DNA of 64,000 bases. Origin: an uncultured Pseudomonadales bacterium (lineage in GTDB: Bacteria; Pseudomonadota; Gammaproteobacteria; Pseudomonadales; Azotimanducaceae). The notes under the pieces were generated by a model. That model was given only the letters and a program-made list of their open reading frames with translations, had not been told where the DNA came from and did not search any database. A program made the translations under genes and the position numbers. Shown here piece after piece: positions 23,619 to 39,526 of the stretch. How positions within the stretch are numbered: the stretch's first letter is position 1; every line of letters begins with the position of its first letter. The stretch covers positions 3,286,001-3,350,000 of the forward strand of contig OY282455.1 in NCBI GenBank assembly GCA_958296195.1, in the 5' to 3' direction.

Positions 23619-23768
23619 GCACTTCGACGGCAACGAGGCCACCAAACAGAAAAATACCGAAAAAACTCATGACTCCATAAAATTGCGCAAGATTCTTTCC
23701 AAAGACGCTTCGCTCAAAACCACGCTGGATGGCATTGGAGATGATGTCACACGAAGTCGTAAAAGGAA

Positions 23769-24572
23769 TCACCGCTCAATGACCGGAAGCATGGCTTCCG
23801 AACACCGGAGATCCACCAGCCCCTGACCGAATTCACGGTCAATGCCCGGTGCGCCGATGTCCTGCGCACAGTGTTTCAGCACACGCACCACCTCCGCAGC
23901 GTCCTCATAGAGCTGAAAGAGGTGGAAGACCATAGCACTGAGTTTCGCGGTCGCACCGGAGGTGTGACCGATATCCAACACGGTGAAACAGTGTTCCATG
24001 AAATCACCGCACTTGTAGACATACCGATCCGGCACGATCGCGCCGGAGTGCCGGCGGATTGCCGTGGTCGCCATCAGCCCTTTCCCCGTGTTCAATGCGT
24101 CGCGCATCGCGTAGTAGGTTGTATGTTCCCAACCGCAGGCAGTGTCGGTGTCCAAACGCCATGTATCCCGATGGTGCGGGCCCTTGATACAGGGATCCGG
24201 TGACCCGTTGGTGAACTGCACATTCCCGGCACCGACCGGGACCACCAGGTTGAGCGACCGGAGCCGCGCGTCGTCACCCTCGTGGAACGCGCTGCTCACC
24301 GACCGGTTCACCACCAGGGTCTCGGCGCGCAGGGCGCGGTGCACGGGACGGAGGAAGCCTTTAAGGCCGACAACACCACCAGGCACGACGATAGCGGTTC
24401 TCGGCACCCCTTCTTCCCGTATATAGCCGAGCATGCGCTCCGCGTGCGAGCCGCTTAGGGCTTCACCCGCCGACAACTCCCATATCACCAGCTTCTTCCG
24501 GTGTCCGCCGGCCTCGGTAATGCGTTCCAGGAGGCCGAGCAGTCCGGGGAAGGTGCTCGTGTTCACAAACAC
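23769..24572 (-). CDS. Copy 1, part B: subtilisin-like (S8) C-terminal domain, probably inactive
   Basis: 267 codons, open from GTG 24572. The last 80 residues read like the end of an S8 peptidase: HTSGATAKLSAMVFHLFQLY (serine motif TSGA), then CAQDIGAPGIDREFGQGLVDL. An oxyanion-type Asn lies in VGAGNVQF. Where the catalytic Asp and His are expected, VFVNTS and SGSHAERM are seen, which suggests Asp to Asn and His to Ser. A Cys pair (KCGDFMEHC) may form a disulfide. Part A upstream is in another frame, because a 4-bp duplication (GTCG GTCG) lies at the junction. Removing it would fuse the two. Compared with copies 2 and 3 it lacks about 12 residues after VVPG. Confidence 0.55.
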   Translation of the reverse strand: MFVNTSTFPGLLGLLERITEAGGHRKKLVIWELSAGEALSGSHAERMLGYIREEGVPRTAIVVPGGVVGLKGFLRPVHRALRAETLVVNRSVSSAFHEGDDARLRSLNLVVPVGAGNVQFTNGSPDPCIKGPHHRDTWRLDTDTACGWEHTTYYAMRDALNTGKGLMATTAIRRHSGAIVPDRYVYKCGDFMEHCFTVLDIGHTSGATAKLSAMVFHLFQLYEDAAEVVRVLKHCAQDIGAPGIDREFGQGLVDLRCSEAMLPVIER

Positions 24573-26016
24573 CGACCGACGCCGGGAGCGTGGAGAGGTT
24601 CGTCAGATGGCCGGTGGGGGTCTCCATGAGGTTCATGACGGTGAGCTTTCGCTCATTTATCGCACCGATATCGGTGTAGCCGAATTCACTCATCCGGAGC
24701 CGCCACTTCCCGTCACCGTCGCCGAAAAATTGCTCCAAAAACGCCGCATCGGTGCGGCGCACCTGATGGCGTTCCAAATGGCCCGTACCGACCGATCTGG
24801 TGAGCGTCCCGGCATCATCCACGCCTTCAAAGTTCACATACGCCCGTTGATCGGACGCGTTGAGCGTCCGCACGATACTCCGCTGCGTCGTATTGCTCGC
24901 CGGATTGAAGGTGGCTACCTGGTAGTCAAGGATCCCGGCATGCACCGTATCGTGCAGCGCGGTCAGGAAGCCGTCTTTCTTGGTGCGCATGTAACTGAGC
25001 ACCCGTACGGTGCCGGTCACGGTCAGATGCCAGTCGCCGGTACCGTCGCCGATACCGGTGATCAACTTCCGGTCGTTCCCGTGCTCCAGATCATCGGCGT
25101 TGAAGTGTATCGCTTCATTTGCGCCGACGGAGAGCCGTACCGTGCCGCGTTCCGTGGCGGAGTCGTCAAATGCTCTGAAGATCACCGTCTGCTCCGTGTC
25201 CGTCTCGTTGATGATCCGGACGAAGCCCTGCCGGTTCTCCGAAGCCGCGGGGAAGAGGGGCACCAGGGTGGTGCCTGCCTCCGGCGCGGTGGAGAGGTTC
25301 GTCAGATGGCCGGTGGGGGTTGCCATGAGGGACATGACGAGGAGCGGTCGGTTCGCGGTCACCCTGAGGCGCCACTTACCCGCTCCGTCGCCGAGTCCCA
25401 TGGTTTCCAGTTCCTGTGCCGTGAACACGCGTGCCGCGTTGGCGGCGATGCGTGCCGTGACCGTGCTGCGTCCTGCGGTGCCCCGGTCATCGGTACCCGC
25501 GATAGTCGCTGACACTGCGGTGCCGGAAGGATTCACGATGCGCAGGATACTCCGCTGCCTCGTGTTGCTGCCGGGGTTGAAGATATGCACCCGATGGGTG
25601 CCGTCTTCGTCTCTGGGCACGGTGTCGTGCAGGGAGGTCAGAAAGCCGTCTTCTCTGGTCCGCATGTAGACGGGAGCCGTGAAGACGAGGTCACTGGTCA
25701 GTTCCAGCCGCCAGTCACCGTCGCCGGGACCGATGCCCGTCAGAATGCCCTTCGCCGTGTTGCCGTTCTCCAGGTCATTGGCGGTGAAGTGTTTGACTTC
25801 TTCGCCTGCCGCAAACGCTATGGTCTCCGTCCGCCGCACACCGGTGTCGGTGTAGGCGGTGATACGCAATACGCCGGCATGGGCATACGGGTTGATCACC
25901 CGTATGAAGCCCTGCCGATTCTCCGAAGCCGCGGGAAACAGGGGCACGGTCTGTGTCACTGCTGCCGCTTCAAACGCGAACAGCAGCGGCAGAATGCCTA
26001 CGGCAAATCGGCGCAT
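24463..26016 (-). CDS. Copy 1, part A: secreted protein with duplicated VPLFPAASENRQGF modules
   Basis: Start ATG 26016 opens a signal peptide (MRRFAVGILPLLFAFEAAA), so the product is exported. Two modules of about 230 residues follow. Each has a first half starting VPLFPAASENRQGF and a second half starting with FNP(G/A)SNT-RQRS, and contains GDGDWRLE, D-G-F-L-T-(S/A)-L-H-D-T and GHLTNLST. The modules look like all-beta adhesive or substrate-binding domains, and I know of no assigned function. The frame is intact down to LSTLPAS near 24600. The last 37 or so codons to 24463 are out-of-frame read-through into part B and not native sequence. This is the best preserved of the three part A copies. 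Confidence 0.65.
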   Translation of the reverse strand: MRRFAVGILPLLFAFEAAAVTQTVPLFPAASENRQGFIRVINPYAHAGVLRITAYTDTGVRRTETIAFAAGEEVKHFTANDLENGNTAKGILTGIGPGDGDWRLELTSDLVFTAPVYMRTREDGFLTSLHDTVPRDEDGTHRVHIFNPGSNTRQRSILRIVNPSGTAVSATIAGTDDRGTAGRSTVTARIAANAARVFTAQELETMGLGDGAGKWRLRVTANRPLLVMSLMATPTGHLTNLSTAPEAGTTLVPLFPAASENRQGFVRIINETDTEQTVIFRAFDDSATERGTVRLSVGANEAIHFNADDLEHGNDRKLITGIGDGTGDWHLTVTGTVRVLSYMRTKKDGFLTALHDTVHAGILDYQVATFNPASNTTQRSIVRTLNASDQRAYVNFEGVDDAGTLTRSVGTGHLERHQVRRTDAAFLEQFFGDGDGKWRLRMSEFGYTDIGAINERKLTVMNLMETPTGHLTNLSTLPASVGVCEHEHLPRTARPPGTHYRGRRTPEEAGDMGVVGG

Positions 26017-26496
26017 GGTCCTGTGCTCCAACCCATCCGAAGGCGCAGTGTACGGCGGCTTGAGGGTTAAGTGAATGGCCCCCCATGGAAGAAAGGCTTG
26101 CGCCGTGGGCTTTTCGCTGGTGTTTTTGTCTAGCGCGGGGTGTTTCTGCGGGTTGGGCCGGATAGGTGGACGCGCACAGCAACGGGCTCTGGATTCTGAG
26201 GGCTTTGGGGTCGTTTTGGGCTGTTCGAGCGTCGGCTCGCCCGCTTTGCCGCGGCCCAGACGAGCGGAGGTCGGGAGGCGGACACCGCACAGGACAGGGC
26301 TGGGGTGGGCCAGAGCGAGGGCCACCATCCATCTTAGGTGATGATCGAAAATAACAGGTTATAACCCATTGATAAAATTGACAATTTTGGTCGGTATCAA
26401 GGGCCTTCAAAAAGAAAGTAACCTAGATAAAACCTTTACTAATAATGATAACTATATAAAAAAATTACACTTTTCCGCCCCCAACCAATATCCCTA
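26017..26496. other. Intergenic region between repeat copy 1 and the RiPP-type cluster
   Basis: Two parts can be told apart. From 26017 to about 26340 it is GC-rich and carries the motif TTGCGCCGTGGGCTTTTCGC at 26098, which recurs at 36614 and 39527, plus a tail resembling the transposase remnant's 3' flank. From about 26340 the composition drops sharply to AT-rich DNA, marking the likely boundary of the acquired cargo. No gene was found. Confidence 0.55.
26098..26130 (+). repeat. Short dispersed repeat, copy a
   Basis: About 30 bases beginning TTGCGCCGTGGGCTTTTCGC and continuing GCTGGTGTTT. Nearly the same sequence occurs at 36614 and 39527 on the same strand. Copies a and c lie upstream of the part A genes of repeat copies 1 and 3, and copy b lies next to the transposase remnant. 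Confidence 0.55.
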
Positions 26497-26524
26497 TTGA
26501 CGCCGCACTCTCTTTTTATATCAT
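26497..26524 (+). promoter_or_regulatory. Sigma70-like promoter of the RiPP-type cluster
   Basis: TTGACG at 26497-26502 and TATCAT at 26519-26524 are separated by 16 bases, each one mismatch from consensus. The pair lies 32 bases upstream of the GTG of the small peptide gene, within AT-rich DNA. An ideal ribosome-binding site AGGAGG (26546-26551) follows, 5 bases before the GTG. Confidence 0.6.
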
Positions 26525-26556
26525 GCAACCATCATTAAGCCGAATAGGAGGCAAAC

Positions 26557-26736
26557 GTGAACGAAGCAACCATGGCCCTAAGAGCGACTGAAACTGACCT
26601 TCCCTTGGAGAACCTCGAAATTGATGTCAGTCAAATCCCCAGCCCTGCTCTTGCTAGGCTGGTCGAGGAGGTTAGGAACGAGGACCCTCTATTCCCGCAA
26701 GCCTATGACCGAGTCCACAATCGACACAACCGCTAG
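26557..26736 (+). CDS. Putative RiPP precursor peptide (cyclophane/triceptide type)
   Basis: 59 codons, too short for routine gene calling. GTG start with a perfect AGGAGG five bases upstream. The N-terminal part is acidic and helical-looking (ETDLPLENLEIDVSQIP, then ALARLVEEVRNEDPLFP), which suits a leader. The last eleven residues AYDRVHNRHNR contain three aromatic-x-Arg triplets in a row: YDR, HNR and HNR. Three-residue cyclophane (triceptide) enzymes join an aromatic ring (Trp, Phe, Tyr or His) to the third residue of such triplets, so this C-terminus is a fitting core. The radical SAM gene starts 26 nt downstream. No protease or transporter is nearby. The role is inferred from position, size and motif. 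Confidence 0.72.
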   Translation: MNEATMALRATETDLPLENLEIDVSQIPSPALARLVEEVRNEDPLFPQAYDRVHNRHNR

Positions 26737-26762
26737 GTGGAAGGTCTCAGGAGGGCCGAACT

Positions 26763-27914
26763 GTGTTGGAAATTAACACGGTCTTGGTGAAGGTGGCCAG
26801 CCGATGTAATATAAACTGCTCGTACTGCTACGTTTACAACATGGGAGATATGCAGTGGGCTAGTATGCCTAAGCATATCTCCCATGCGACGATAGTAGCC
26901 TTATCAAAAAATTTGAAAGCATTGGCCGATGCTCAAGGACGACGATTCGCGGTTGTATTGCATGGTGGAGAACCATTGCTACTAGGATACAAGAAGCTGT
27001 CATACCTGCTCCTAAGTCTGCGGAAGATTCTTTCCGCGGACTACTATCCGTTGAGCATTCAGACAAATGGCATATGTATAACTGATGATATTCTGGACCT
27101 TTGCTCAGAGCATCGTGTAAGCCTTAGCGTGAGTATTGACGGCCCCCAAAATGTCAATGACCGCCACAGGATAGATCATTTAGGCCGGGGAACTTATGCT
27201 CGAATTATCCGAGGCATCCAAAAACTCCGAGACCATCTGGACTCGGAATTTTTGTATGCTGGCATCTTATCTGTGATTGACCCCGAATCTGACCCAAGCG
27301 AGGTATATTCATCATTAAAGGACCTTGACGCTCCTAGTATAGACTTCCTATATAGGGACGGCAATCACACAGAGCTTCCTCCCGGAAAGAAGACCGTTCG
27401 ATCTACTGAATACGGCCAATGGTTAGTGGCTCTCTTGGGTGCATATCTAGCAGACCCTAATCCGCCCCGAATTCGATTCCTGGATGACATGATAAAACTG
27501 GTTCTTGGTGGTTACGGCACCAAGGAGGGGTTAGGATTTACTGATTACGGGATCATCATTATTGATACGGATGGATCCATATCAAAAAACGATACTCTAA
27601 AAAGCTCGTATAATGGCGCGGACCGCTTCTCTCAGCCCTGCTCGATTCACGCTCACAATCTTGTCGATATCTTGGACTCACCGGAATTTTCTGAATACCA
27701 CGCCTTGCAGAGGCCAACTGCCTCATCATGCCTCTCATGTCCGGAACTAAAGGTATGCGGAGGCGGAATGCCTCTGCATAGATGGAGTAAGCAAAATGGG
27801 TATGACAATCCGTCGGTCTATTGCGCTGACCAAATGATTCTTATTAGCCAAGTTCGACATCAGATTGGATTGATAACAGGCGAGAAATTGGAGTATGAGC
27901 GACCATCTTGTTGA
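26763..27914 (+). CDS. Radical SAM/SPASM peptide-modifying enzyme, cyclophane-synthase-like
   Basis: 383 residues. The radical SAM cluster motif CNINCSYCYVYN starts at Cys15 (CxxxCxxC), followed by HGGEPLLL and a TIM-barrel core (LSIQTNGICI, SLSVSIDGP). The C-terminal region has SPASM-type cysteines (CSIHAHN, CLSCPELKVCGGG, YCADQ) for auxiliary Fe-S clusters. The KVASRCNINCSYCYVYN opening is shared by the FxsB/GrrM/XyeB-like maturases that build cyclophanes on precursor peptides. GTG 26763 has CAGGAGGG upstream. The last 20 bases overlap the oxygenase gene, so the operon is tight. The predicted substrate is the 59-residue peptide encoded just upstream. Confidence 0.85.
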   Translation: MLEINTVLVKVASRCNINCSYCYVYNMGDMQWASMPKHISHATIVALSKNLKALADAQGRRFAVVLHGGEPLLLGYKKLSYLLLSLRKILSADYYPLSIQTNGICITDDILDLCSEHRVSLSVSIDGPQNVNDRHRIDHLGRGTYARIIRGIQKLRDHLDSEFLYAGILSVIDPESDPSEVYSSLKDLDAPSIDFLYRDGNHTELPPGKKTVRSTEYGQWLVALLGAYLADPNPPRIRFLDDMIKLVLGGYGTKEGLGFTDYGIIIIDTDGSISKNDTLKSSYNGADRFSQPCSIHAHNLVDILDSPEFSEYHALQRPTASSCLSCPELKVCGGGMPLHRWSKQNGYDNPSVYCADQMILISQVRHQIGLITGEKLEYERPSC

Positions 27915-28491
27915 CTTGCATATCTCCGGGCCGTTTGCCGACCCATTTAGTCATTTTCTATCACATAAAGTCTTTAAACCGGACGTGAGTCAAAGAATAT
28001 TGGCCTGGCTGGAAAACACCAGCCGCTGGAAGCTGGTGGAAACTAACTTTTACGAGCAATTTGAATTTAGTCTCCTGGACTGCTGCCCTCCCAAAGGCCT
28101 CGGGTTGCTGCGCTCACCTTTTTTCCTTAGGTCTCTAGGTAATCGGTTGGAGAAGTTGTTCAACACGAGTCTCGACGAACATCCCCATATCACAGCGCAT
28201 AAGTTGGTTCCAGGGCAAAGTATTAGGCTTCACAATGATTTCATTCCGGGGGGTGAAACTCATCGAGTTCTCATTCAACTAAATGGGGGCTGGAAGACCG
28301 CTCAAGGTGGGCTTCTGGTCTTTTTTGGCAGTGATTGTTCGGAGGATGTGCGTAAGATATTTCATCCTCGGCACAATAGCGCGATTGGATTTGCGATATC
28401 CGAGAGGTCTTACCACGCCGTATCCACCATCCACACAGGGGAGCGCTTTACACTCGTCTATTCCTTTTCCGAGAGATTGGCCGGTGCGTGA
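27895..28491 (+). CDS. 2-oxoglutarate/Fe(II) oxygenase, putative RiPP tailoring enzyme
   Basis: 198 residues with a double-stranded beta-helix pattern. The Fe(II) facial triad is His113 and Asp115 in RLHNDF, and His174 in ERSYHAVST. Arg184 in GERFTLVYSF is the probable 2-oxoglutarate anchor. HRVLIQLNGGW and GGLLVFF are core strands. Such enzymes hydroxylate unactivated carbons, and relatives act on peptides or ribosomal proteins. It starts within the end of the radical SAM gene (20-nt overlap) and overlaps the HExxH gene by 8 nt, which argues for a role on the same peptide. Prolyl-hydroxylase-like proteins are the nearest recognisable relatives. Confidence 0.8.
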   Translation: MSDHLVDLHISGPFADPFSHFLSHKVFKPDVSQRILAWLENTSRWKLVETNFYEQFEFSLLDCCPPKGLGLLRSPFFLRSLGNRLEKLFNTSLDEHPHITAHKLVPGQSIRLHNDFIPGGETHRVLIQLNGGWKTAQGGLLVFFGSDCSEDVRKIFHPRHNSAIGFAISERSYHAVSTIHTGERFTLVYSFSERLAGA

Positions 28492-29362
28492 TATTCAAAC
28501 CCAAGTTTTGTCTGTCGTGAACAAATATCCTAGTTGTCTGTGGACTCCAAGTCTCGCAAAACTGTTGGCAGAGCATAAACAACTAAGTCTCCTTCAACAG
28601 ATCGGAATGGCGATTGACGACTACGGGACCCATCGCCTATTAGTGGGCTCAAGTTCTAGCTCTCGAAGAGTTTTCGCTTCGGTGCCAATTTCTCGAACAG
28701 AAAATGACGGCCAGTCGAAGCAGGTTTTATCGATAGAAATTCTGCCAAAAGACGATCGGGAAAAATACCGAAAGCGTGGGCTAACGTTTTTTTCAGAGCA
28801 CGAGTTGGCTTGCTCGAAGGTACTTGAATGTTTTAGGGACGCTGTAGAAATCATGAATTTAATACCCCAGCTTGGAGAAACCATTGGTTTTCTGGCCAGG
28901 ATAGGTCACATGCTCAAGTCTGATGATGATGGTTCGGACATAAGTTACAGTGACCCTCTTGTTCCATTTTCGATTTGGGTGTCCGTCCCGCGAGGCAGAG
29001 TAGTGAACGATAGTTTGAGGGTGTCAGAATCCATCTTACATGAATCCATGCATCTTCAGCTAACCCTTATTGAAGGGGTTTTGCCGCTTATTCACTCTCA
29101 GGAACAAACCTTTTTCTCCCCGTGGAAAAAGGCATGGCGACCATCACTAGGTATCCTGCACTCCTTGTATGTTTTTCGTGCCATTGACCAATTTTTTGAG
29201 CGACTACTATCTCGTTCCATATGGGCTCCTGAGGATATTAGGCATATGGAGAGGCGCCGCATGCAAATTGGGCAACAAGTTTCGCAATTTGAGGGGACTC
29301 TCGATTCGTCAGACCTTACAGATGTCGGAAGGAATTTGGTGACAAGGCTACTGACTGTTTAG
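28484..29362 (+). CDS. HExxH-motif protein, putative 2OG-dependent peptide beta-hydroxylase
   Basis: 292 residues from GTG 28484, which overlaps the end of the oxygenase gene by 8 nt. The frame is open further upstream but there it only shadows that gene. The motif SILHESMHLQLTLIEG (His186 to His190) looks like a metalloprotease site. In RiPP clusters, however, HExxH proteins of this type, either stand-alone or fused to radical SAM cyclophane synthases, act as 2-oxoglutarate-dependent beta-hydroxylases. The downstream segment LGILHSLYVFRAIDQFF is also family-like, with a His that may complete the metal site. It is the last gene of the cluster. A protease role in leader removal is the alternative. 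Confidence 0.7.
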   Translation: MRDIQTQVLSVVNKYPSCLWTPSLAKLLAEHKQLSLLQQIGMAIDDYGTHRLLVGSSSSSRRVFASVPISRTENDGQSKQVLSIEILPKDDREKYRKRGLTFFSEHELACSKVLECFRDAVEIMNLIPQLGETIGFLARIGHMLKSDDDGSDISYSDPLVPFSIWVSVPRGRVVNDSLRVSESILHESMHLQLTLIEGVLPLIHSQEQTFFSPWKKAWRPSLGILHSLYVFRAIDQFFERLLSRSIWAPEDIRHMERRRMQIGQQVSQFEGTLDSSDLTDVGRNLVTRLLTV

Positions 29363-29422
29363 ACTGGAAGCGCACCTCTACTTCGACAGGCGGATGGCCG
29401 AGATCGCCCCCCGCAGGATACT

Positions 29423-30238
29423 TTAGGGGGAGTCTGGCCGGACGGGTGCTACGTCATCCGTGCCCCAGTCCGTCCTGCGAACTTCCTTGAGTTGCTTGGC
29501 AAAAGCGCTGTATTCCGCCTGATCGGAAACGGCGGCCCGAATTTCCTGGTTAGCCAGCTCAACCAGATCCTCGAAGTCCCCATTATTAGACATCTCATCT
29601 TTCATTTTGACTATGCAAAGAAAGGCACACAACTGCTGCAACCGCCCTTCCCGTTTGTCTCGTAAAGCATCTCGATTGAGGTCGAGGCAGTCAATGGTCT
29701 CCTTTCCCTGCCTTGTACGGTGGCCTATGACTGACCCAGAAAAATGGAAGTGTATATTGGGATCATCTATTGCTGGATGTACAAGCATCGGTTGCTCACA
29801 TTCCATAGGATCCTCGTGACTCCGAGCCCGATTGTCTTCATCTAGAAGAGGAAACAAATCGTTCTTTTTTGTATTGCAAACGGGACAGCACATAAGGAGG
29901 TTATCCCAATCATAAACTAACCAGTAATATCCCGGATATAGTTTAGTACATCCTTTCGATTGCCGTACGGAACCCTTTGGGCGATAATGTTCGATGTTTG
30001 GGTGGGCCGCAGGGCGAATCTTAGTTTCACAGTAGCAGCACTTTCCGTGTTGTGCGAGGAGTAGCTGTTCTCTCACCTCACTGTTTCCATAGATATTGGA
30101 GTCAAAATTAAACTTTTTGACGCCCGACCTGTAGTCTTCGCCAGTTTCAATGTAGGAATCACAGTCCTCCTTGATCCTCTGACCTCCCCTGCGCGAAAGC
30201 TCTGGCGGACCGCCGGACGGTTTTACGATCCTAATCAT
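29423..30238 (-). CDS. ptuB: HNH endonuclease of a Septu-like system (PtuB-like)
   Basis: 271 residues from ATG 30238 (GGGAG upstream). An earlier in-frame ATG at 30271 lies inside the ATPase gene. The zinc and HNH elements are visible: GKCCYCETKI, NIEHYRPKG with the catalytic His, and CCPVCNTKKND. The LVYDWDNLLMCCPVCN arrangement is that of the TIGR02646-type HNH proteins that accompany AAA ATPases in Septu and in retron-Eco8-like or related systems. It is expected to cut nucleic acid once the ATPase senses infection. It converges on the RiPP-type cluster, with 60 nt between stops. Confidence 0.82.
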   Translation of the reverse strand: MIRIVKPSGGPPELSRRGGQRIKEDCDSYIETGEDYRSGVKKFNFDSNIYGNSEVREQLLLAQHGKCCYCETKIRPAAHPNIEHYRPKGSVRQSKGCTKLYPGYYWLVYDWDNLLMCCPVCNTKKNDLFPLLDEDNRARSHEDPMECEQPMLVHPAIDDPNIHFHFSGSVIGHRTRQGKETIDCLDLNRDALRDKREGRLQQLCAFLCIVKMKDEMSNNGDFEDLVELANQEIRAAVSDQAEYSAFAKQLKEVRRTDWGTDDVAPVRPDSP

Positions 30239-30254
30239 TAGTAGCAGCACTCCC

Positions 30255-31637
30255 TCATTTTGTTTCTGCAATGATGGCCGCCGCTTTGCGTATTATTTCC
30301 ATAGCTTCCCGGTCCTCCCGAGTTTCGGCGGTTGGCAGGCTATCAAGTTCGTCCTCAATTTCGCTCAGCCGTATCTTATCTGTATCAGATAGGATCCGCT
30401 TGCTGCACAAATCGATCTTTTCATCGATAAGAGCTTCAACGTGAGGGCTTCGTGAGGAGGATAGGCCAAAAAGTGGGCTGGTGAGAATTTGGTCAACTCT
30501 CCACCCCTCAACGGCTTCTGGATTGTTTTCGATTACTACCTGCCCACACTCTTGCCGCAATACAACTAGATTAGCCCCTTTTGTCGCCTGAGCCATCAAG
30601 GGACTATGTGCAGTTGCAATAAACTGGATTTGAGGAAAAAGATCGGTCAAATTCTCAACTATACGCCGCTGCCATAGGGGGTGTAAATGAAGATCGATTT
30701 CGTCGATCATCACAATGGCAGGCTCAACTAGCGGATTATCGTTTTCTGGGTAGTACCGATATAGTCGAGTTGCGAGGTCCAGGACCCAAGCTAATGTTGT
30801 TTGGTAGCCTAGGCTTAGAGCAGAAAGTGGGATGGGGCCATAAGGAGTAACAAATCTAACACCACCGCCACTATTCTCATCCGGGATTCCGAGGCTCTTT
30901 AAGCTCTTTGGTCCCAAAATTTTTATATCTTCTGCATTCTTAACATCTGGAAGGATTGTAGCGAGCATTTCCTTTACCTTTTCTAGATGTGACGCGACTA
31001 CTTTTCTTTTGATGGAAGCGTAATCCAGGTCCAGTAGAATTTTTTCTGCGTCGTAGAGCTCTGTTGCTCCCGAAAAGAGAGAAGCTAGAGGGTCACGAAG
31101 TTCTGAGTTTTGAATATTGAGTCTGCCCATGCGCCGGTCTGCACCATAGGCAAAAATGGGCATGTCTTGGGGCGGAAATTTTAGCTCTCCGGGAAGCTCA
31201 CCAGACGGGTCGAAATTTGTTAACTTTTGATTGCTCCCCTCCATTTTGATACCTGTTTTAATTTCTAGCGCCTGCCCGTTTTCTGCTGTGTTAAGTTTTT
31301 GACCGGTACTCAATGTCGCCTTGATGTCGGCTTCTGCTGATTGCGCTACGCGAAGCAGTGAATCGAGCACTTTGTTTTCTTCTTCAGCTAGCGCGGGCTG
31401 AATATCTGTCGAGGCATCTTGGTCTTGGGAGTTGGTAGTTATTTTTAGAACAGGCCTCATCCAAGCTAGGCATTGGAGTAAAGTTGTTTTTCCAACGCCG
31501 TTGTCTCCCAAAAGCAGGGTCCATTGAGGTAAGCTACCGTCTGAGCCACACAGATCTAGAACTTGTCGTTCCCCAAAACAGCGGACATTCTCTAGTTCAA
31601 GAGATTTGTAGTAAATTAGTGACTGCGGATTTGCCAT
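30255..31637 (-). CDS. ptuA: AAA/SMC-like ATPase of a Septu-like system (PtuA-like)
   Basis: 460 residues. The opening KSLELENVRCFGE is typical of OLD/RecF/SMC-like ATPases. Walker A is GDNGVGKTT (44-52), a signature region SALSLGYQTTLAWVL lies near 275, and Walker B is IVMIDEIDLHLHP, followed by the D-loop/switch FIATAHSPLMAQ. The C-terminal domain beyond residue 400 is helical. Paired with an HNH gene 16 nt downstream, this is the two-gene Septu anti-phage architecture. There is no reverse transcriptase or ncRNA in the adjoining DNA, which argues against a retron. Composition is AT-rich like the RiPP-type cluster. Confidence 0.85.
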   Translation of the reverse strand: MANPQSLIYYKSLELENVRCFGERQVLDLCGSDGSLPQWTLLLGDNGVGKTTLLQCLAWMRPVLKITTNSQDQDASTDIQPALAEEENKVLDSLLRVAQSAEADIKATLSTGQKLNTAENGQALEIKTGIKMEGSNQKLTNFDPSGELPGELKFPPQDMPIFAYGADRRMGRLNIQNSELRDPLASLFSGATELYDAEKILLDLDYASIKRKVVASHLEKVKEMLATILPDVKNAEDIKILGPKSLKSLGIPDENSGGGVRFVTPYGPIPLSALSLGYQTTLAWVLDLATRLYRYYPENDNPLVEPAIVMIDEIDLHLHPLWQRRIVENLTDLFPQIQFIATAHSPLMAQATKGANLVVLRQECGQVVIENNPEAVEGWRVDQILTSPLFGLSSSRSPHVEALIDEKIDLCSKRILSDTDKIRLSEIEDELDSLPTAETREDREAMEIIRKAAAIIAETK

Positions 31638-31748
31638 GCCCAGCTCCTTAGTCTGCGGTTTGGTTGCTGATTATACTGGTTTTAGCCTGTGTCACCCTGC
31701 TTTTTCTGCCGTTTTACCTCTTGATGGGGGCGTTGAGGGGGCAAGGAA

Positions 31749-32582
31749 TCACCGCTCAATGACCGGAAGCATGGCTTCCGAACACCGGAGATCCACCAGC
31801 CCCTGACCGAATTCACGGTCAATGCCCGGTGCGCCGATGTCCTGCGCACAGTGTTTCAGCACACGCACCACCTCCGCAGCGCTCTCATAGAGCTGAAAGA
31901 GGTGGAAGACCATAGCACTGAGTTTCGCGGTCGCACCGGAGGTGTGACCGATATCCAGCACGGTGAAACAGTGTTCCATGAAATCACCGCACTTGTAGAC
32001 ATACCGATCCGGCACGATCGCGCCGGAGTGCCGGCGGATTGCCGTGGTCGCCATCAGCCCTTTCCCCGTGTTCAGCGCATCGCGCATCCTGTAGTAGGAC
32101 GGGTTCTCCCAACCGCAGGAGGTGATGGTGTCCGTCCGCCATTTATCCCGATGCTGCGGTCCCTTGATACAGGGAAAGCGCGGTGAACCGTTAGTGAACC
32201 ACACATTCCCGGCACTGACCGGGACCACCAGGTTGAGCGATCGGAGCCGCGCGTCATCGCCCTCGCCGAACCCGGGGCTCACCGACCGGTTCACCACCAG
32301 GGTCTCGGCGCGCAGGGCGCGGTGCACGGGGCGGAGGAAGCCTTTAAGGCCGCCAATCGCACTGTCTCTGTTGCTCGTCAACTCAGGACCGGGCACGACG
32401 ATAGTAGCGCTCGGTACCCCTTCTTCCCGCATATAGCCGAGCATGCGCTCCGCGTGCGAGCCGCTTAGGGCTTTACCCGCCGACAACTCCCATATCACCA
32501 GCTTCTTCCGGTGTCCGCCGGCCTCGGTAATGCGCTCAAGGAGGCCGAGCAGTCCGGGGAAGGTGCTTGTGTTCACAAACAC
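31749..32582 (-). CDS. Copy 2, part B: subtilisin-like domain, probably inactive
   Basis: 277 codons from GTG 32582. It has the same features as copy 1: VFVNTSTFPG at the start, SGSHAERM, the GNVWFTNG segment, HTSGATAKLSA and GAPGIDREFGQGLVDL. It carries an extra stretch GPELTSNRDSAIGG that is absent from copy 1. A patch of about 90 bases (NVWFTNGSPRFPC to CGWENPSYYRM) diverges strongly from copies 1 and 3, while both sides are nearly identical. The junction with part A carries one extra base, so the two frames are not fused. Confidence 0.5.
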   Translation of the reverse strand: MFVNTSTFPGLLGLLERITEAGGHRKKLVIWELSAGKALSGSHAERMLGYMREEGVPSATIVVPGPELTSNRDSAIGGLKGFLRPVHRALRAETLVVNRSVSPGFGEGDDARLRSLNLVVPVSAGNVWFTNGSPRFPCIKGPQHRDKWRTDTITSCGWENPSYYRMRDALNTGKGLMATTAIRRHSGAIVPDRYVYKCGDFMEHCFTVLDIGHTSGATAKLSAMVFHLFQLYESAAEVVRVLKHCAQDIGAPGIDREFGQGLVDLRCSEAMLPVIER

Positions 32583-32589
32583 CGAACGG

Positions 32590-34005
32590 CGTGGAGAGGT
32601 TCGTCAGATGGCCGGTGGGGGTCTCCATGAGGTTCATGACGGTGAGCTTGCGCTCATTTATCGCACCGATATCGGTGTAGCCGAATTCACTCATCCGGAG
32701 CCGCCACTTCCCGTCACCGTCGCCGAAAAATCGCTCCAAAAACGCCGCATCGGTGCGGCGCACCTGATGGCGTTCCAAATGGCCCGTGCCGACCGAGCTG
32801 GTGAGCGTCCCGGCATCATCCACGCCTTCAAAGTTCACGAATGCCCGCTGATCGGACGCGTTGAGCGTCCGCACGATACTCCGCTGCGTCGTATTGCTCG
32901 CCGGATTGAAGGTGGCTACCTGGTAGTCAAGGACCCCGGCATGCACCGTATCGTGCAGCGCGGTCAGGAAGCCGTCCTGCTTGGTGCGCATGTAACTGAG
33001 CACCCGTACGGTGCCGGTCACGGTCAGATGCCAGTCGCCGGTACCGGTGATCAACTTCCGGTCGTTGCCGTGCTCCAGATCATCGGCGTTGAAGTGTATC
33101 GCTTCATTCGCGCCGACGGAGAGCCGTACCGTGCCGCGTTCCGTGGCGGAGTCGTCAAATGCCCTGAAGATCACCGTCTGCTCCGTATCCGTCTCGTTGG
33201 TGATCCGGACGAAGCCCTGCCGGTTCTCCGAAGCCGCGGGGAAGAGGGGCACCAGGGTGGTGCCTGTCTCCGGAGCGGTGGAGAGGTTCGTCAGATGGCC
33301 GGTGGGGGTTGCCATGAGGGACATGACGAGGAGCGGTCAGTTCGCGGTCACCCTGAGGCGCCACTTACCCATGCCGTCGCCGAGTCCCATGGTTTCCAGT
33401 TCCTGTGCCGTGAGCTCGCGTGCCGCGTTGGCGGCGATGCGTGCCGTGACCGTGCTGCGTCCCGCGTTGCCCCGGTCATCGGTGCCCGCGATAGTCGCGG
33501 AGACCGCCCTAGCGGAAGGATTCACGATGCGCAGGATACTCCGTTGCCTCGTGTTGCTGCCGGGGTTGAAGATATGCACCCGGTAGGCGCCGTCTTCGTC
33601 TCTGGGCACGGTGTCGTGCAGGGAGGTCAGAAAGCCGTCCTGCCTGGTCCGCATGTAGACGGGAGCCGTGAAGACGAGGTCACTGGTCAGTTCCAGACGC
33701 CAGTCACCGTCGCCGGGACCGATGCCCGTCAGAATGCCCTTCGCCGTGTTGCCGTTCTCCAGGTCATTGGCGTTGAAGTGTTTGACTTCTTCTCCTGCCG
33801 CAAACGCTATGCGCTCCGTCCGCCGCGCACCGGTGTCGGTGTAGGCGGTGATACGGAGTGTGCCGGCCTGGGCATACGGGTTGATCACCCGTATGAAGCC
33901 CTGCCGATTCTCCGAGGCCGCGGGAAACAGGGGCACGGTCTGTGTCACTGCTGCCGCTTCACAGACCAGCAGCAGCGGCAGAATGCCCGCGGCAAATCGG
34001 CGCAT
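32590..34005 (-). pseudogene. Copy 2, part A: secreted module protein with a nonsense mutation
   Basis: The signal peptide and first module are open from ATG 34005 (MRRFAAGILPLL) to RLRVTAN. A TGA then follows at 33337-33339, where copy 1 has CGA (Arg). The second module continues in the same frame from VMSLMATPTGHLTN to the part B junction. The first piece could still yield a 222-residue secreted single-module protein. The second piece would need internal initiation. Confidence 0.75.
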
Positions 34006-34179
34006 GGCGGATTTTTCCATTGGTTGTTGAATTTGCCGTCCACGGCCTTGTCGGCGTTCGCTGCGCCGGTGGACGGGCTGCGGGGCTGAGTATATGCATT
34101 TCTCCGCCCCGTGCTACCATGAGGCGCATGACTGCACATGCGCACAACCAACTGCAGGTCGTTGACCAGAGGGGGCACC

Positions 34180-34507: not shown

Positions 34508-35161
34508 CTAAGTAGCTTCCTTCAGAAATGTTTCCCTCGTTTGAGGATTGTAGGTTATCGATACGAATCCACCCTTAAGGAAGTTGCTGACTGCCCGCCT
34601 GGCAAACGCGGGCAAGTTTGTGCCGCCCGCGTTCCTCACCGACGGTGCCAAGAGTCCATCTAGACTAGCAGCCACGGCCTCGACGCCCAAATTGTTGCAG
34701 AACCGATAGTTATTGTCGTGCGTGAGGGCACGCCATTCCCGTTCGGCTTGCTTGGGCCGCAAGTCTTTCACGTTGCCGTTGAAATGGTACATAAAGCGCA
34801 AGTACCAAGCCGTTCGTGCATGAGTGGGCTTGCCAGAAACCTGTTTGGAAAACCATCGCTTAACTTCTGCTTCCGCCGTCGGAGCTTCCATGGCGCCATA
34901 AAGCACTGGGAAAGAGCCATCCGAAAAACGTGTGGCGTAGCGGGTTTTTGCCAACCGGGCCTTGGGCTTGAAAGCCTTGTCAACAAGAGCCTCTGGCTGG
35001 GTTGTGATGCCCCGGGCTTCCAGAAATTGTAGGGCTTCGTCAATGCCTCTTTCGTCAAGCCCCTGTGCCTGAAAAAATTCCGAGGATTTTGGAAGGCTTG
35101 CCAACCGAATCAACTCAGTCCGCTCGGTTCGGGTGGTAATCGACTTAAGCACACCTACCAA
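34508..35161 (-). CDS. RES-domain toxin
   Basis: 217 codons from TTG 35161, overlapping the antitoxin stop. A GTG at 35152 is an equal alternative. RES-type features are TRYATRFSDGSFPVLYGAMEAPTAEAEV (the R-x(n)-R-F-x-G and Y-x-A patterns, with the E of the TAEAEV helix) and the later GVEAVAASLDGL with a downstream Ser/Asn-containing loop. RES toxins attack NAD+ or modify metabolic enzymes and are held in check by Xre/ParS-type antitoxins. The adjacent upstream gene fits that role. This protein is longer than the typical 150-180 residues because of an N-terminal extension of about 60 residues. Confidence 0.72.
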   Translation of the reverse strand: MVGVLKSITTRTERTELIRLASLPKSSEFFQAQGLDERGIDEALQFLEARGITTQPEALVDKAFKPKARLAKTRYATRFSDGSFPVLYGAMEAPTAEAEVKRWFSKQVSGKPTHARTAWYLRFMYHFNGNVKDLRPKQAEREWRALTHDNNYRFCNNLGVEAVAASLDGLLAPSVRNAGGTNLPAFARRAVSNFLKGGFVSITYNPQTRETFLKEAT

Positions 35162-35769
35162 CCCGTTGCTGCTTCAATGTATTCCCTGACAAGCAGGAGA
35201 TTTTCCATGGACCCTTCCAGCAGGAGTTGCATTGGCACTTTGCCGTCCAATGGCTCATGTGGTTCCCGAAGCCACTCGTTCTCCACCTCCTCGTCTCGAA
35301 ACCATTCGGACAGCGTCATCCGCATCTGAATGAGGTAGGCGAGGCGGTCCTTGGCATCGCGTCCTCTAAGCGCCGTGCGCCCCGCAAGCACATCTGCGGC
35401 GTAGCCTTGGTCCGGCGGCTCCAATCCGAGTAAGGGAACGGCGTCTGCTTTATCCAGCCGCCAAGTTTCCAGAATCTTATTGATGAGCTGTATGGGGCCG
35501 GTCAATCTAGCGGCACCCGAGGGAGATGGCGTCACTGACGGTGAATCTGATGTAATTTTAAGCTGCCCAGTATGCCACGATACATCCATCCAACGGTGTG
35601 ACGGTGTCGGACTACCATGAACAGAGGAAGCGTGGCGGACGCCAATTGGTGCAGCTTCCTCGATTGAGTCGGAATACGAGTCGTTCAATGCATCGTAATC
35701 CCAGTCATACGAATACCCTTCATCCTGATTCCCAGGTTGTAGATACGCTGTTGCAGGTTCCATGCTCAC
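35155..35769 (-). CDS. Xre/MbcA/ParS-type antitoxin of the RES pair
   Basis: 204 residues. GTG 35769 overlaps the upstream stop as GTGA. The first 90 residues are acidic and low-complexity. The rest carries LINKILETWRLDKADAVPLLG (HTH-like region) and the C-terminal toxin-binding part with W-L-R-E-P-x-x-x-L-D-G-K-V-P-M-Q-L-L-L-E-G, the hallmark of the MbcA/ParS toxin-binding domain. It should neutralise the RES protein encoded immediately downstream and autorepress the operon. The acidic N-terminal extension is unusual. Confidence 0.75.
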   Translation of the reverse strand: MSMEPATAYLQPGNQDEGYSYDWDYDALNDSYSDSIEEAAPIGVRHASSVHGSPTPSHRWMDVSWHTGQLKITSDSPSVTPSPSGAARLTGPIQLINKILETWRLDKADAVPLLGLEPPDQGYAADVLAGRTALRGRDAKDRLAYLIQMRMTLSEWFRDEEVENEWLREPHEPLDGKVPMQLLLEGSMENLLLVREYIEAATGW

Positions 35770-37060: not shown

Positions 37061-37172
37061 GGTAGGCGCTTGCAGCGGCGCATCTCCGCGTCTCCCACTT
37101 GCCAGGAGTTGCGCACCTCCGGGTTCAGCCAATGGCCGGCAGATGTCGCGGGGTATGAGCGTACGGCAGGCA

Positions 37173-38003
37173 TCACCGCTCAATGACCGGAAGCATGGCT
37201 TCCGAACACCGGAGATCCACCAGCCCCTGACCGAATTCACGGTCAACGCCCGGTGCGCCGATGTCCTGCGCACAGTGTTTCAGCACACGCACCACCTCCG
37301 CAGCGCTCTCATAGAGCTGAAAGAGGTGGAAGACCATCGCACTGAGTTTCGCGGTCGCACCGGAGGTGTGACCGATATCCAATACGGTGAAACAGTGTTC
37401 CATGAAGTCACCGCACTTGTAGACATCCCGGTTCGGCACGATCGCACCGGACTGCCGGCGGATTGCCGCGGTCGCCATCAGCCCTTTTCCCGTGTTCAAT
37501 GCGTCGCGCATCGCGTAGTAGGTCGTATGTTCCCAACCGCAGGAAATGTCGGTATCTAACCGCCATGTATCCCGGTGATGCGGTCCCTTGATACAGGGGG
37601 TCGGTGAACCGTTAGTGAACTGCACATTCCCGGCAGCGACCGGGACCACCAGGTTGAGCGACCGGAGCCGCGCGTCGTCACCGTCGTGGAACGCGCTGCT
37701 CACCGACCGGTTCACCACCAGGGTCTCGGCGCGCAGGGTGCGGTGCACGGGACGGAGGAAGCCTTTAAAGCCGCCAAGCGCACTGTCTCTGTTGCTCGTC
37801 AACTCAGGACCGGGCACGACGATAGTAGCGCTCGGTACCCCTTCTTCCCGCATATAGCCGAGCATACGTTCCGCATGCGAGCCGCTTAGGGCTTTACCCG
37901 CCGACAACTCCCATATCACCAGCTTCTTCTTGTGTCCGCCGGCCTCGGTAATGCGTTCAAGGAGGCCGAGCAGTCCGGGGAAGGTGTTCGTGTTCACAAA
38001 CAC
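37173..38003 (-). CDS. Copy 3, part B: subtilisin-like domain, probably inactive
   Basis: 276 codons from GTG 38003. Features are as in copies 1 and 2 (VFVNTNTFPG, SGSHAERM, AAGNVQFTNG, HTSGATAKLSA, GAPGVDREFGQGLVDL). Part A upstream ends at TGA 37994-37996, so the two frames overlap by 10 bases. The junction here has five extra bases relative to the fused form. A few copy-specific substitutions (HKKKLV for HRKKLV, TLRAETL, IVPNRDVYKC) show it is not a very recent duplicate. Confidence 0.5.
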   Translation of the reverse strand: MFVNTNTFPGLLGLLERITEAGGHKKKLVIWELSAGKALSGSHAERMLGYMREEGVPSATIVVPGPELTSNRDSALGGFKGFLRPVHRTLRAETLVVNRSVSSAFHDGDDARLRSLNLVVPVAAGNVQFTNGSPTPCIKGPHHRDTWRLDTDISCGWEHTTYYAMRDALNTGKGLMATAAIRRQSGAIVPNRDVYKCGDFMEHCFTVLDIGHTSGATAKLSAMVFHLFQLYESAAEVVRVLKHCAQDIGAPGVDREFGQGLVDLRCSEAMLPVIER

Positions 38004-39447
38004 CGACCGTACGCCGGGAGCGTGGAGAGGTTCGTCAGATGGCCGGTGGGGGTCTCCATGAGGTTCATGACGGTGAGCTTTCGCTCATTTATCGCACCGA
38101 TATCGGTGTAGCCGAATTCACTCATCCGGAGCCGCCACTTCCCGTCACCGTCGCCGAAAAATTGCTCCAAAAACGCCGCATCGGTGCGGCGCACCTGATG
38201 GCGTTCCAAATGGCCCGTACCGACCGATCTGGTGAGCGTCCCGGCATCATCCACGCCTTCAAAGTTCACATACGCCCGTTGATCGGACGCGTTGAGCGTC
38301 CGCACGATACTCCGCTGCGTCGTATTGCTCGCCGGATTGAAGGTGGCTACCTGGTAGTCAAGGACCCCGGCATGCACCGTATCGTGCAGCGCGGTCAGGA
38401 AGCCGTCCTGCTTGGTGCGCATGTAACTGAGCACCCGTACGGTGCCGGTCACGGTCAGATGCCAGTCGCCGGTACCGTCGCCGATACCGGTGATCAGCTT
38501 CCGGTCGTTGCCGTGCTCCAGATCATCGGCGTTGAAGTGTATCGCTTCATTCGCGCCGACGGAGAGCCGTACCGTGCCGCGTTCCGTGGCGGCGTCGTCA
38601 AATGCCCTGAAGATCACCGTCTGCTCCGTGTCCGTCTCGTTGATGATCCGGACGAAGCCCTGCCGGTTCTCCGAAGCCGCGGGGAAGAGGGGCACCAGGG
38701 TGGTGCCTGCCTCCGGCGCGGTGGAGAGGTTCGTCAGATGGCCGGTGGGGGTTGCCATGAGGGACATGACGAGGAGGGGCTGGTTTGCGGTCACCCTGAG
38801 GCGCCACTTACCCGCTCCGTCGCCGAGTCCCATGGTTTCCAGTTCCTGTGCCGTGAGCACGCGTGCCGCGTTGGCGGCGATGCGTGCCGTGACCGTGCTG
38901 CGTCCTGCGGTGCCCCGGTCATCGGTGCCCGCGATGGTCGCTGACACTGCGGTGCCGGAAGGATTCACGATGCGCAGGATACTCCGCTGCGTCGTGTTGC
39001 TGCCGGGGTTGAAGATATGCACCCGGTAGGTGCCGTCTTCATCTCTGGGCACGGTGTCGTGCAGGGAGGTCAGAAAACCGTCCTGTCTGGTCCGCATGTA
39101 GACGGGAGCCGTAAAGACGAGGTCACTGGTCAGTTCCAGACGCCAGTCACCGTCGCCGGGACCGATGCCCGTCAGAATGCCCTTCGCCGTGTTGCCGTTC
39201 TCCAGGTCATTGGCGGTGAAGTGTTTGACTTCTTCGCCTTTCGCAAACGCTATGGTCTCCGTCCGCCGTGCACCGGTGTCGGTGTAGGCGGTGATACGGA
39301 GTGTGCCGGCCTGGCATACGGGTTGTTCACCCGTATGAAGCCCTGCCGATTCTCCGAAGCCGCGGGAAACAGGGGCACGGTCTGTGTCACTGCTGCCGCT
39401 TCACCGATAAGTAGCAATGGCAGAATGCCCAAGGCAAATCGGCGCAT
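37994..39447 (-). pseudogene. Copy 3, part A: secreted module protein with a frameshift after the signal peptide
   Basis: ATG 39447 opens a signal peptide (MRRFALGILPLLLIGEAAA) and the first VPLFPAASENRQGF segment. One G is then missing near 39309 (CCTGGCATA against CCTGGGCATA in copy 2), and the frame ends at 39250. The remaining modules are open in another frame from about 39300 to the TGA at 37994. The product is therefore probably not made in full. Confidence 0.75.
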
Positions 39448-39526
39448 GGTCCTGTGCTCCAACCCAAAAACACAACATCATAGTGGTTCGGACCCCCAAT
39501 GACCCAATTGCCTGGCGATGAGAGAC

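Follow-up and report, generated by a model that had tools for sequence, protein, structure and literature searches.

We analysed a 64,000-nucleotide stretch of the genome of an uncultured Pseudomonadales bacterium of the family Azotimanducaceae (contig OY282455.1, positions 3,286,001 to 3,350,000), here called the window, which carries a compact cluster of four genes on its forward strand at positions 26557-29362. Reading of its open reading frames (ORFs) gives the order yhhA, yhhB, yhhC and a gene for a protein with an HExxH motif, and in a profile scan all four products exceeded the curated NCBIfam cut-offs. The cluster and the putative promoter ahead of it are made up as follows:

26497..26524, forward strand: candidate sigma-70-like promoter, TTGACG-16-TATCAT, 10/12 matches
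26557..26736, forward strand: yhhA, precursor peptide of 59 residues, leader plus C-terminal core YDRVHNRHNR (NF041705, 61.4 bits, cut-off 36)
26763..27914, forward strand: yhhB, radical S-adenosylmethionine (SAM)/SPASM three-residue-cyclophane-forming enzyme of 383 residues (NF041707, 505.4 bits, cut-off 445)
27895..28491, forward strand: yhhC, 2-oxoglutarate (2OG)-Fe(II) oxygenase of 198 residues, HxD...H present as HND...H (NF041706, 234.1 bits, cut-off 150)
28484..29362, forward strand: stand-alone alphaKG-HExxH-type protein of about 292 residues from its most likely GTG start (TIGR04267, 77.6 bits, cut-off 40)

This four-gene arrangement is confirmed as real. An earlier note, made from the letters of the window, had described four tightly packed or overlapping same-strand ORFs behind one promoter, and the packing is as it stated: yhhA and yhhB are separated by 26 bases, yhhB and yhhC overlap by 20 bases, and yhhC and the HExxH gene overlap by 8 bases, given a start at the GTG at 28484. 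That GTG is most likely the true start, because homologues in the loci of the congener G008 (L001) and the Piscinibacter metagenome-assembled genome (MAG) G952 (L002) align from there. The ATG at 28283, with which the mechanically called ORF begins, was rejected; it would impose a 209-base overlap with yhhC, and the homologues align from the GTG instead. The yhhA gene also starts with GTG, with AGGAGG 5 bases upstream. The promoter fares less well. A site is indeed present, but sites of this type number 4 in the region against 4.0 expected by chance, and the promoter at 26497-26524 is plausible with its position as its sole support. Within 26300-29500 one terminator-like site was found, on the reverse strand. 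We also compared the window with the corresponding locus of G008, a MAG named 'uncultured Pseudomonadales bacterium', with which it shares 93.6% DNA identity. The ratio of non-synonymous to synonymous substitution rates (dN/dS) was 0.22 for yhhA, 0.18 for yhhB, 0.28 for yhhC and 0.28 for the HExxH gene, with small counts for yhhA (4 synonymous and 3 non-synonymous) and yhhC (6 and 6). The neighbouring genes of the same pair, described below, lie above all four (PtuA 0.44, PtuB 0.53, repeat gene 0.47). This one measured pair points to purifying selection on the four genes.

The 59-residue ORF, proposed earlier as the precursor of a ribosomally synthesized and post-translationally modified peptide (RiPP), is recognised as such by the YhhA family model. 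The earlier note had staked its RiPP reading on conservation of this small ORF beside the radical SAM gene, and on the enzyme not grouping with non-peptide enzymes. In fact, a C-terminal core of the form YDR[VMT]H[NH]RHNR, ending there or followed by G, S or GQ, adjoins YhhB in all 11 yhh loci that we read. These are the loci of the window, G008, G184, G952 and G1148, and those on plasmids of Vibrio echinoideorum, Rhizobium sp. L51/94, R. tumorigenes, R. etli, R. leguminosarum and Novosphingobium; for the annotated plasmids NCBI supplied the YhhA name, which makes the core there partly true by naming. Ten of the 11 have a YhhB over the cut-off (window, G008, G184, G952, G1148, L036, L037, L039, L055) or one so annotated (L038), and the unannotated R. 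leguminosarum locus (L056) was included because it has a YhhA core and sits next to L055 in the tree described below. The plasmid loci came from 150 plasmid records with a YhhB-like match, of which eight (H1, H4, H7, H9, H11, H13, H14, H15) were opened among the 20 listed. Two of these, H13 and H14 (L058 and L057), were rejected as yhh loci for want of a YhhA-like core, as was the genome G557, whose YhhB match (329 bits) is under the cut-off and which likewise has no such core.

The second protein had been described as a radical SAM enzyme of the FxsB/GrrM/XyeB kind, and its assignment to the cyclophane formers holds. It carries CxxxCxxC as CNINCSYC, with more cysteines close to the C-terminus, and the nearest solved structure by sequence is ChlB (9gm3, E 4.2e-60). 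FxsB, XyeB and GrrM/OscB are likewise radical SAM/SPASM cyclophane makers by name, with E values of 9.3e-95 to 4.1e-28, but the window's enzyme lies beneath each family's cut-off (TIGR04269 for FxsB, 317.7 of 370 bits; XyeB, 183.4 of 450; GrrM/OscB, 98.4 of 310), and membership of these families was rejected. A sulfatase-maturase identity was discarded as well, since the enzyme reaches 120.6 of 349.45 bits with that model and 505.4 of 445 with that of YhhB, and the profile scores thus place the enzyme with cyclophane maturases and far from this comparison enzyme. In a tree of 27 rows, which is small and was built without a named non-peptide enzyme, six non-fused YhhBs form one group (100/99) and five alphaproteobacterial YhhBs another (100/100). 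The six-row group consists of the five loci with the window's gene order plus Vibrio, and a four-row subgroup within it (95/93) does not include G184. The published YhhB (Sugiyama et al. 2022) forms Tyr C3-Arg C-beta and His C2-Arg C-beta bonds (available text of PMC11002830).

Both oxygenase assignments of the earlier note are likewise borne out by the family models. In YhhC, H113, D115 and H174 are invariant in the 4 sequences aligned. In the HExxH protein the motif reads HESMH, and all 10 aligned sequences retain HExxH, SPW, R219 and H226; its nearest solved structure by sequence is ChlH (8s5f, E 5.6e-14). According to the available text of PMC12636437, ChlH depends on 2OG and adds hydroxyl groups to His and Asp residues of a peptide whose cyclophane is already in place.

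The same four-gene order had been named as a check, and it recurs in part. Five of the 11 loci (window, G008, G184, G952, G1148) have the order A-B-C-HExxH, and these amount to four independent loci since the window and G008 count as one lineage; the yhhC of G184 was identified by tblastn and NCBIfam (216.2 bits, cut-off 150). The Vibrio locus, however, has A-B-C without an HExxH match in the 13 kb read, and the remaining five loci, all alphaproteobacterial, have A, YhhB and HExxH with no YhhC by tblastn. Four of these five are YhhB::HExxH fusions and the fifth (Rhizobium sp. L51/94) is interrupted by IS21; there, on pTi (L038, 5989-10763), the element separates yhhB from the HExxH gene and adjoins a CBASS operon and a SIR2-family gene. 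Genes for a GNAT protein and a glycosyltransferase lie downstream of the HExxH part in all four annotated alphaproteobacterial loci (L037, L038, L039, L055), and might serve to acylate or glycosylate the peptide once it is hydroxylated. About 3.7 kb downstream of yhhB on the R. tumorigenes plasmid stands another RiPP-type maturase (L037, 11834-13089), which is annotated HxsB. Across the 11 core peptides we found no residue that clearly co-varies with the presence of YhhC or HExxH.

The yhh system is sparse. Of 206 genomes in the window's bacterial family, 3 have a YhhB over the cut-off, and in a class sample 1 of 369 does, the window's own. YhhC occurred in 1 of 398 genomes of a phylum sample, again the window's own, and in 2 of 399 in a sample around G952, G952 included. 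Five candidate stretches from viral contigs held no relatives, and phage records gave 17 matches, with at most 27.3% identity among the 10 listed.

Taken with the published chemistry, these data make it very probable that the locus is a yhh-type triceptide (cyclophane RiPP) operon equipped with both known kinds of tailoring oxygenase, in which rings would be formed and then hydroxylation carried out by two unrelated enzymes. The N-terminal leader of YhhA would be bound by YhhB, which would make C-C bonds inside the core YDR-V-HNR-HNR, joining Tyr50 to Arg52, His54 to Arg56 and His57 to Arg59. Up to three rings may result, each with the loss of 2 H; three would fit because the published Tyr-Arg and His-Arg links match the Y.R, H.R, H.R spacing. 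Hydroxylation of beta-carbons, in core residues left free of cross-links, would follow. It would be the work of YhhC, a conventional 2OG-Fe(II) oxygenase, and of the HExxH protein, acting as a ChlH-type, zincin-like 2OG-Fe(II) enzyme. For the HExxH protein the likeliest sites would be Asp51 and residues between linked positions, since Asp and His are the residues that ChlH modifies, in a peptide already bearing cyclophanes. This order of steps, rings before hydroxylations, is a prediction, and leader removal and export would fall to proteins encoded elsewhere. Family membership, core conservation, gene order and purifying selection were obtained in this analysis, while the linking of Tyr and of His to Arg, and the dependence of HExxH enzymes on 2OG, are carried over from published relatives. 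With curated families for all four proteins, homology to ChlB and ChlH, a conserved small ORF and a radical SAM enzyme that scores with the peptide maturases, the RiPP reading of the earlier note stands.

Several points weigh against this reading. The oxygenase activity predicted for YhhC rests on its family name, and a literature text search for YhhC returned only unrelated Lactococcus genes so named. An AlphaFold model of the HExxH protein, from a 3-sequence alignment, was poor (mean predicted local distance difference test score, pLDDT, of 43) and went unused. The YhhB tree drew long-branch warnings from the program, L036 and L041 among the rows concerned. Lastly, HExxH enzymes are also able to cleave backbones or hydrolyse peptide bonds (available text of PMC12636437).

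It is conceivable, though we give it a small chance, that the HExxH protein instead supplies the missing processing step, cleaving the backbone by oxidation or hydrolysis to free the ring-bearing core from its leader, which would explain a cluster without a protease. Its relatives PflC and PosC do cleave oxidatively, and PflC hydrolyses its peptide when the leader is absent (available text of PMC12636437). Moreover, no protease- or transporter-named product appears in the five annotated yhh plasmid stretches (five of five), whose gene tables are incomplete; two of the five hold a Mov34/MPN/PAD-1 protein of a CBASS-type set. However, among solved structures the protein is nearest in sequence to ChlH, which hydroxylates cyclophane peptides, and the Vibrio locus has the same core and no HExxH match in the 13 kb read. 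Less probable still is that YhhC and the HExxH protein are redundant and one of them is being lost, the locus being transitional between a YhhC type and an HExxH-fusion type. The Vibrio locus, with YhhC only, and the five alphaproteobacterial loci, with HExxH only, speak for this; yet both genes are kept in four independent loci, both look constrained in the one pair measured (dN/dS 0.28 each, with small counts for yhhC), and the non-fused and the alphaproteobacterial YhhBs fall into separate tree groups.

The nearest known counterparts of the cluster each share part of it. With the YhhABC system (NF041705, NF041707, NF041706) the window has in common all three families over their cut-offs, the Y.R/H.R core spacing and the A-B-C order of Vibrio, but a separate HExxH gene, overlapping yhhC at its end, comes in addition. 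ChlB and ChlH (Morishita et al. 2024; 9gm3 and 8s5f; via the available text of PMC12636437) resemble it in the radical SAM enzyme (E 4.2e-60), in the HExxH protein (E 5.6e-14) and in an HExxH enzyme that acts on a cyclophane peptide. They are, however, a fused radical SAM-HExxH pair, whereas the window has two proteins (26763-27914 and 28484-29362) and the unrelated YhhC; the comparison covers the enzymes. The alphaproteobacterial loci with yhhA and YhhB::HExxH (R. tumorigenes, R. etli, Novosphingobium, R. leguminosarum) have a nearly identical core, YDRMHHRHNRS, and the same enzyme families, but with HExxH fused, no YhhC by tblastn, and GNAT and glycosyltransferase neighbours unseen in the window. 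PflC/PosC and PesO share the broad HExxH oxygenase family by name and are, in the source text available, encoded with MNIO enzymes and not with a cyclophane radical SAM enzyme and YhhC. The novelty that the earlier note saw in the combination survives in part. YhhA, YhhB and YhhC are named NCBIfam families, and the YhhB chemistry and the ChlB/ChlH pairing of radical SAM and HExxH enzymes are published; no report of YhhC and an HExxH enzyme on one cyclophane peptide was found in the literature searched, which is weak evidence as few subscription papers were covered. The novel element thus looks like YhhC and HExxH together, the parts being already known.

The cluster does not stand by itself in the window. 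Convergent to it and 60 bases past its end lies a pair of genes absent from the earlier note, and cluster and pair together are bordered by two copies of a direct repeat of about 2.3 kb that occurs three times in the window:

23763..26035, no strand assigned: direct repeat copy 1, left cassette border, 92.7-94.7% identical to copies 2 and 3
29423..30271, reverse strand: PtuB-like HNH endonuclease of a Septu-type pair (PADLOC PDLC00339, E 1.4e-76; TIGR02646, 57.6 bits, cut-off 52.15)
30255..31637, reverse strand: PtuA-like ATPase of the same pair (PADLOC PDLC00304, E 1.3e-146)
31740..34007, no strand assigned: direct repeat copy 2, right cassette border, from the repeat comparison
37165..39466, no strand assigned: direct repeat copy 3, from the repeat comparison

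The PtuA- and PtuB-like genes stand side by side, as in a Septu system, and against the retron Ec78 models they score under the cut-offs (126 of 500 and 63.3 of 150 bits). Each repeat holds one gene, which in the window's second copy has 2 in-frame TGA codons. The L001 copy of its protein matched no Pfam family at E<=0.01, and of 9 genomes of the genus 8 have matches to the protein, with as many as 32 in one genome. In the congener G008 the repeat is present five times (G008:C1 67450-90868), and the cassettes between the copies differ: yhh plus Septu, a gene resembling SocA (21.4 of 25.7 bits), a gene for AbiEii (46.3 of 22.5 bits), and three genes with sizes like those of the window's next inter-repeat cassette. 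The latter, at 34511-35769, encodes a RES-domain protein and an Xre/MbcA/ParS-type protein by Pfam, without a PADLOC match, and these are likely a toxin-antitoxin pair. PADLOC gave no match to any of seven inter-repeat or adjoining proteins from other cassettes. On the whole this resembles a row of defence and toxin-antitoxin cassettes that can be exchanged.

A link of yhh to phage defence is suggested, and a different reading of the locus would make the yhh cluster, with the Septu genes or alone, part of an anti-phage or toxin-antitoxin module whose cyclic peptide stays inside the cell. We think this unlikely, though several observations favour it. Matches to PDLC00339 (E<=1e-15) occur in 6 of the 206 family genomes, and all three genomes with YhhB are among them, each with PtuB adjoining yhh and with the strongest PtuB matches (E 1e-75 or better); the others, G041, G115 and G190, have no YhhB over the cut-off. 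The hypergeometric probability of this co-occurrence is 1.4e-5 and rises to 4.8e-4 when the two congeners are taken as one; these values are only a guide, as the PtuB model was chosen after seeing the window. In G184 the order PtuA-PtuB-yhhA-B-C-HExxH runs on one strand with a BREX BrxC nearby, and its Septu pair has the same best PADLOC subfamilies as that of the window (PDLC00304 and PDLC00339). Of 10 independent yhh loci, 6 have a recognised system of defence or abortive infection within the 13-19 kb that surround them: Septu three times (window/G008, G184, R. etli), AbiEi/AbiEii in G952, CBASS in Rhizobium sp. L51/94 and a short prokaryotic Argonaute (pAgo) in Novosphingobium. The window's cluster, furthermore, contains no exporter gene.

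Against this, two of the 10 loci are without such a system, namely G1148 and R. leguminosarum (weak ZacB and PbeA matches, E 6.4e-7 at best), and two are ambiguous: Vibrio, with an OLD/AriA-like ATPase (E 6.5e-24), a kinase and a phosphatase, and R. tumorigenes, with ParDE and Fic. Neighbours of so many kinds are what one would expect for cargo of the same islands, and control loci of other maturases also have defence-type matches. For a rough contrast only, as many models are redundant and the tallies count families rather than proteins, PADLOC matches at E<=1e-10 amounted to 212 families over 77 flank proteins of the 10 yhh loci, 44 over 95 proteins of 10 control stretches from the same genomes or replicons, and 65 over 60 proteins of 6 loci with other radical SAM maturases. 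Among the first 25 families of each listing, those of the other-maturase set include SoFic, methyltransferases and mad2, and those of the control stretches reverse transcriptase and DinG. The yhh flank set excludes the PtuA of R. etli and the BrxC of G184 and wrongly gains from an ABC transporter ATPase of G1148; the control set leaves out the two stretches of G557 and also L066, L068, L070, L071 (2,450 bases), L073 and L074, and L042, L045, L047, L049, L054 and L091 lay outside the scan. By annotation, toxin-antitoxin genes occur in both test (L037) and control (L063, HipA) loci. Septu in its known form works without a RiPP, which counts against a joint module. There are general reports of RiPP clusters that lie near defence genes or are co-expressed with them (available text of PMC11118758 and PMC12715929), and co-location alone is for that reason no proof of function. 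No link of Septu to a radical SAM enzyme, nor of triceptides to phage defence, was found in the literature searched, again weak evidence given how few subscription papers it covered.

Two flanking loci deserve mention in their own right. On the Novosphingobium plasmid pLA4 the short prokaryotic Argonaute and its partner (L039, 2190-5098; PADLOC E 2.1e-186 and 4.3e-188) stand beside yhhA and yhhB::HExxH. In G1148 a PADLOC 'mad3' match was rejected as defence, its Pfam content being ABC_tran with oligo_HPY, as in the ATPase of an oligopeptide-type ABC transporter; this gene (L052, 7766-8617) lies tail to tail with the HExxH gene.

The locus lends itself to testing how a small cyclic peptide is shared between two unrelated iron oxygenases, and with relatives that have only YhhC (Vibrio) or only HExxH (the five alphaproteobacterial loci) each enzyme's site could be assigned by comparison. 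As to what the peptide does, we found no statement of a biological role of yhh peptides in the literature consulted. One could speculate, and we regard it as rather improbable, that yhh and PtuAB, in matching subfamilies, move about together as a unit, which in the window's genus is flanked by copies of a repeated gene, and that the triceptide, with three rings and two kinds of oxidation, acts inside the cell within this Septu-linked anti-phage cassette, modulating or arming the defence. The presence of yhh beside Septu or other defence genes, together with the lack of an exporter in the window's cluster, nonetheless provides a concrete lead on the role of the peptide.

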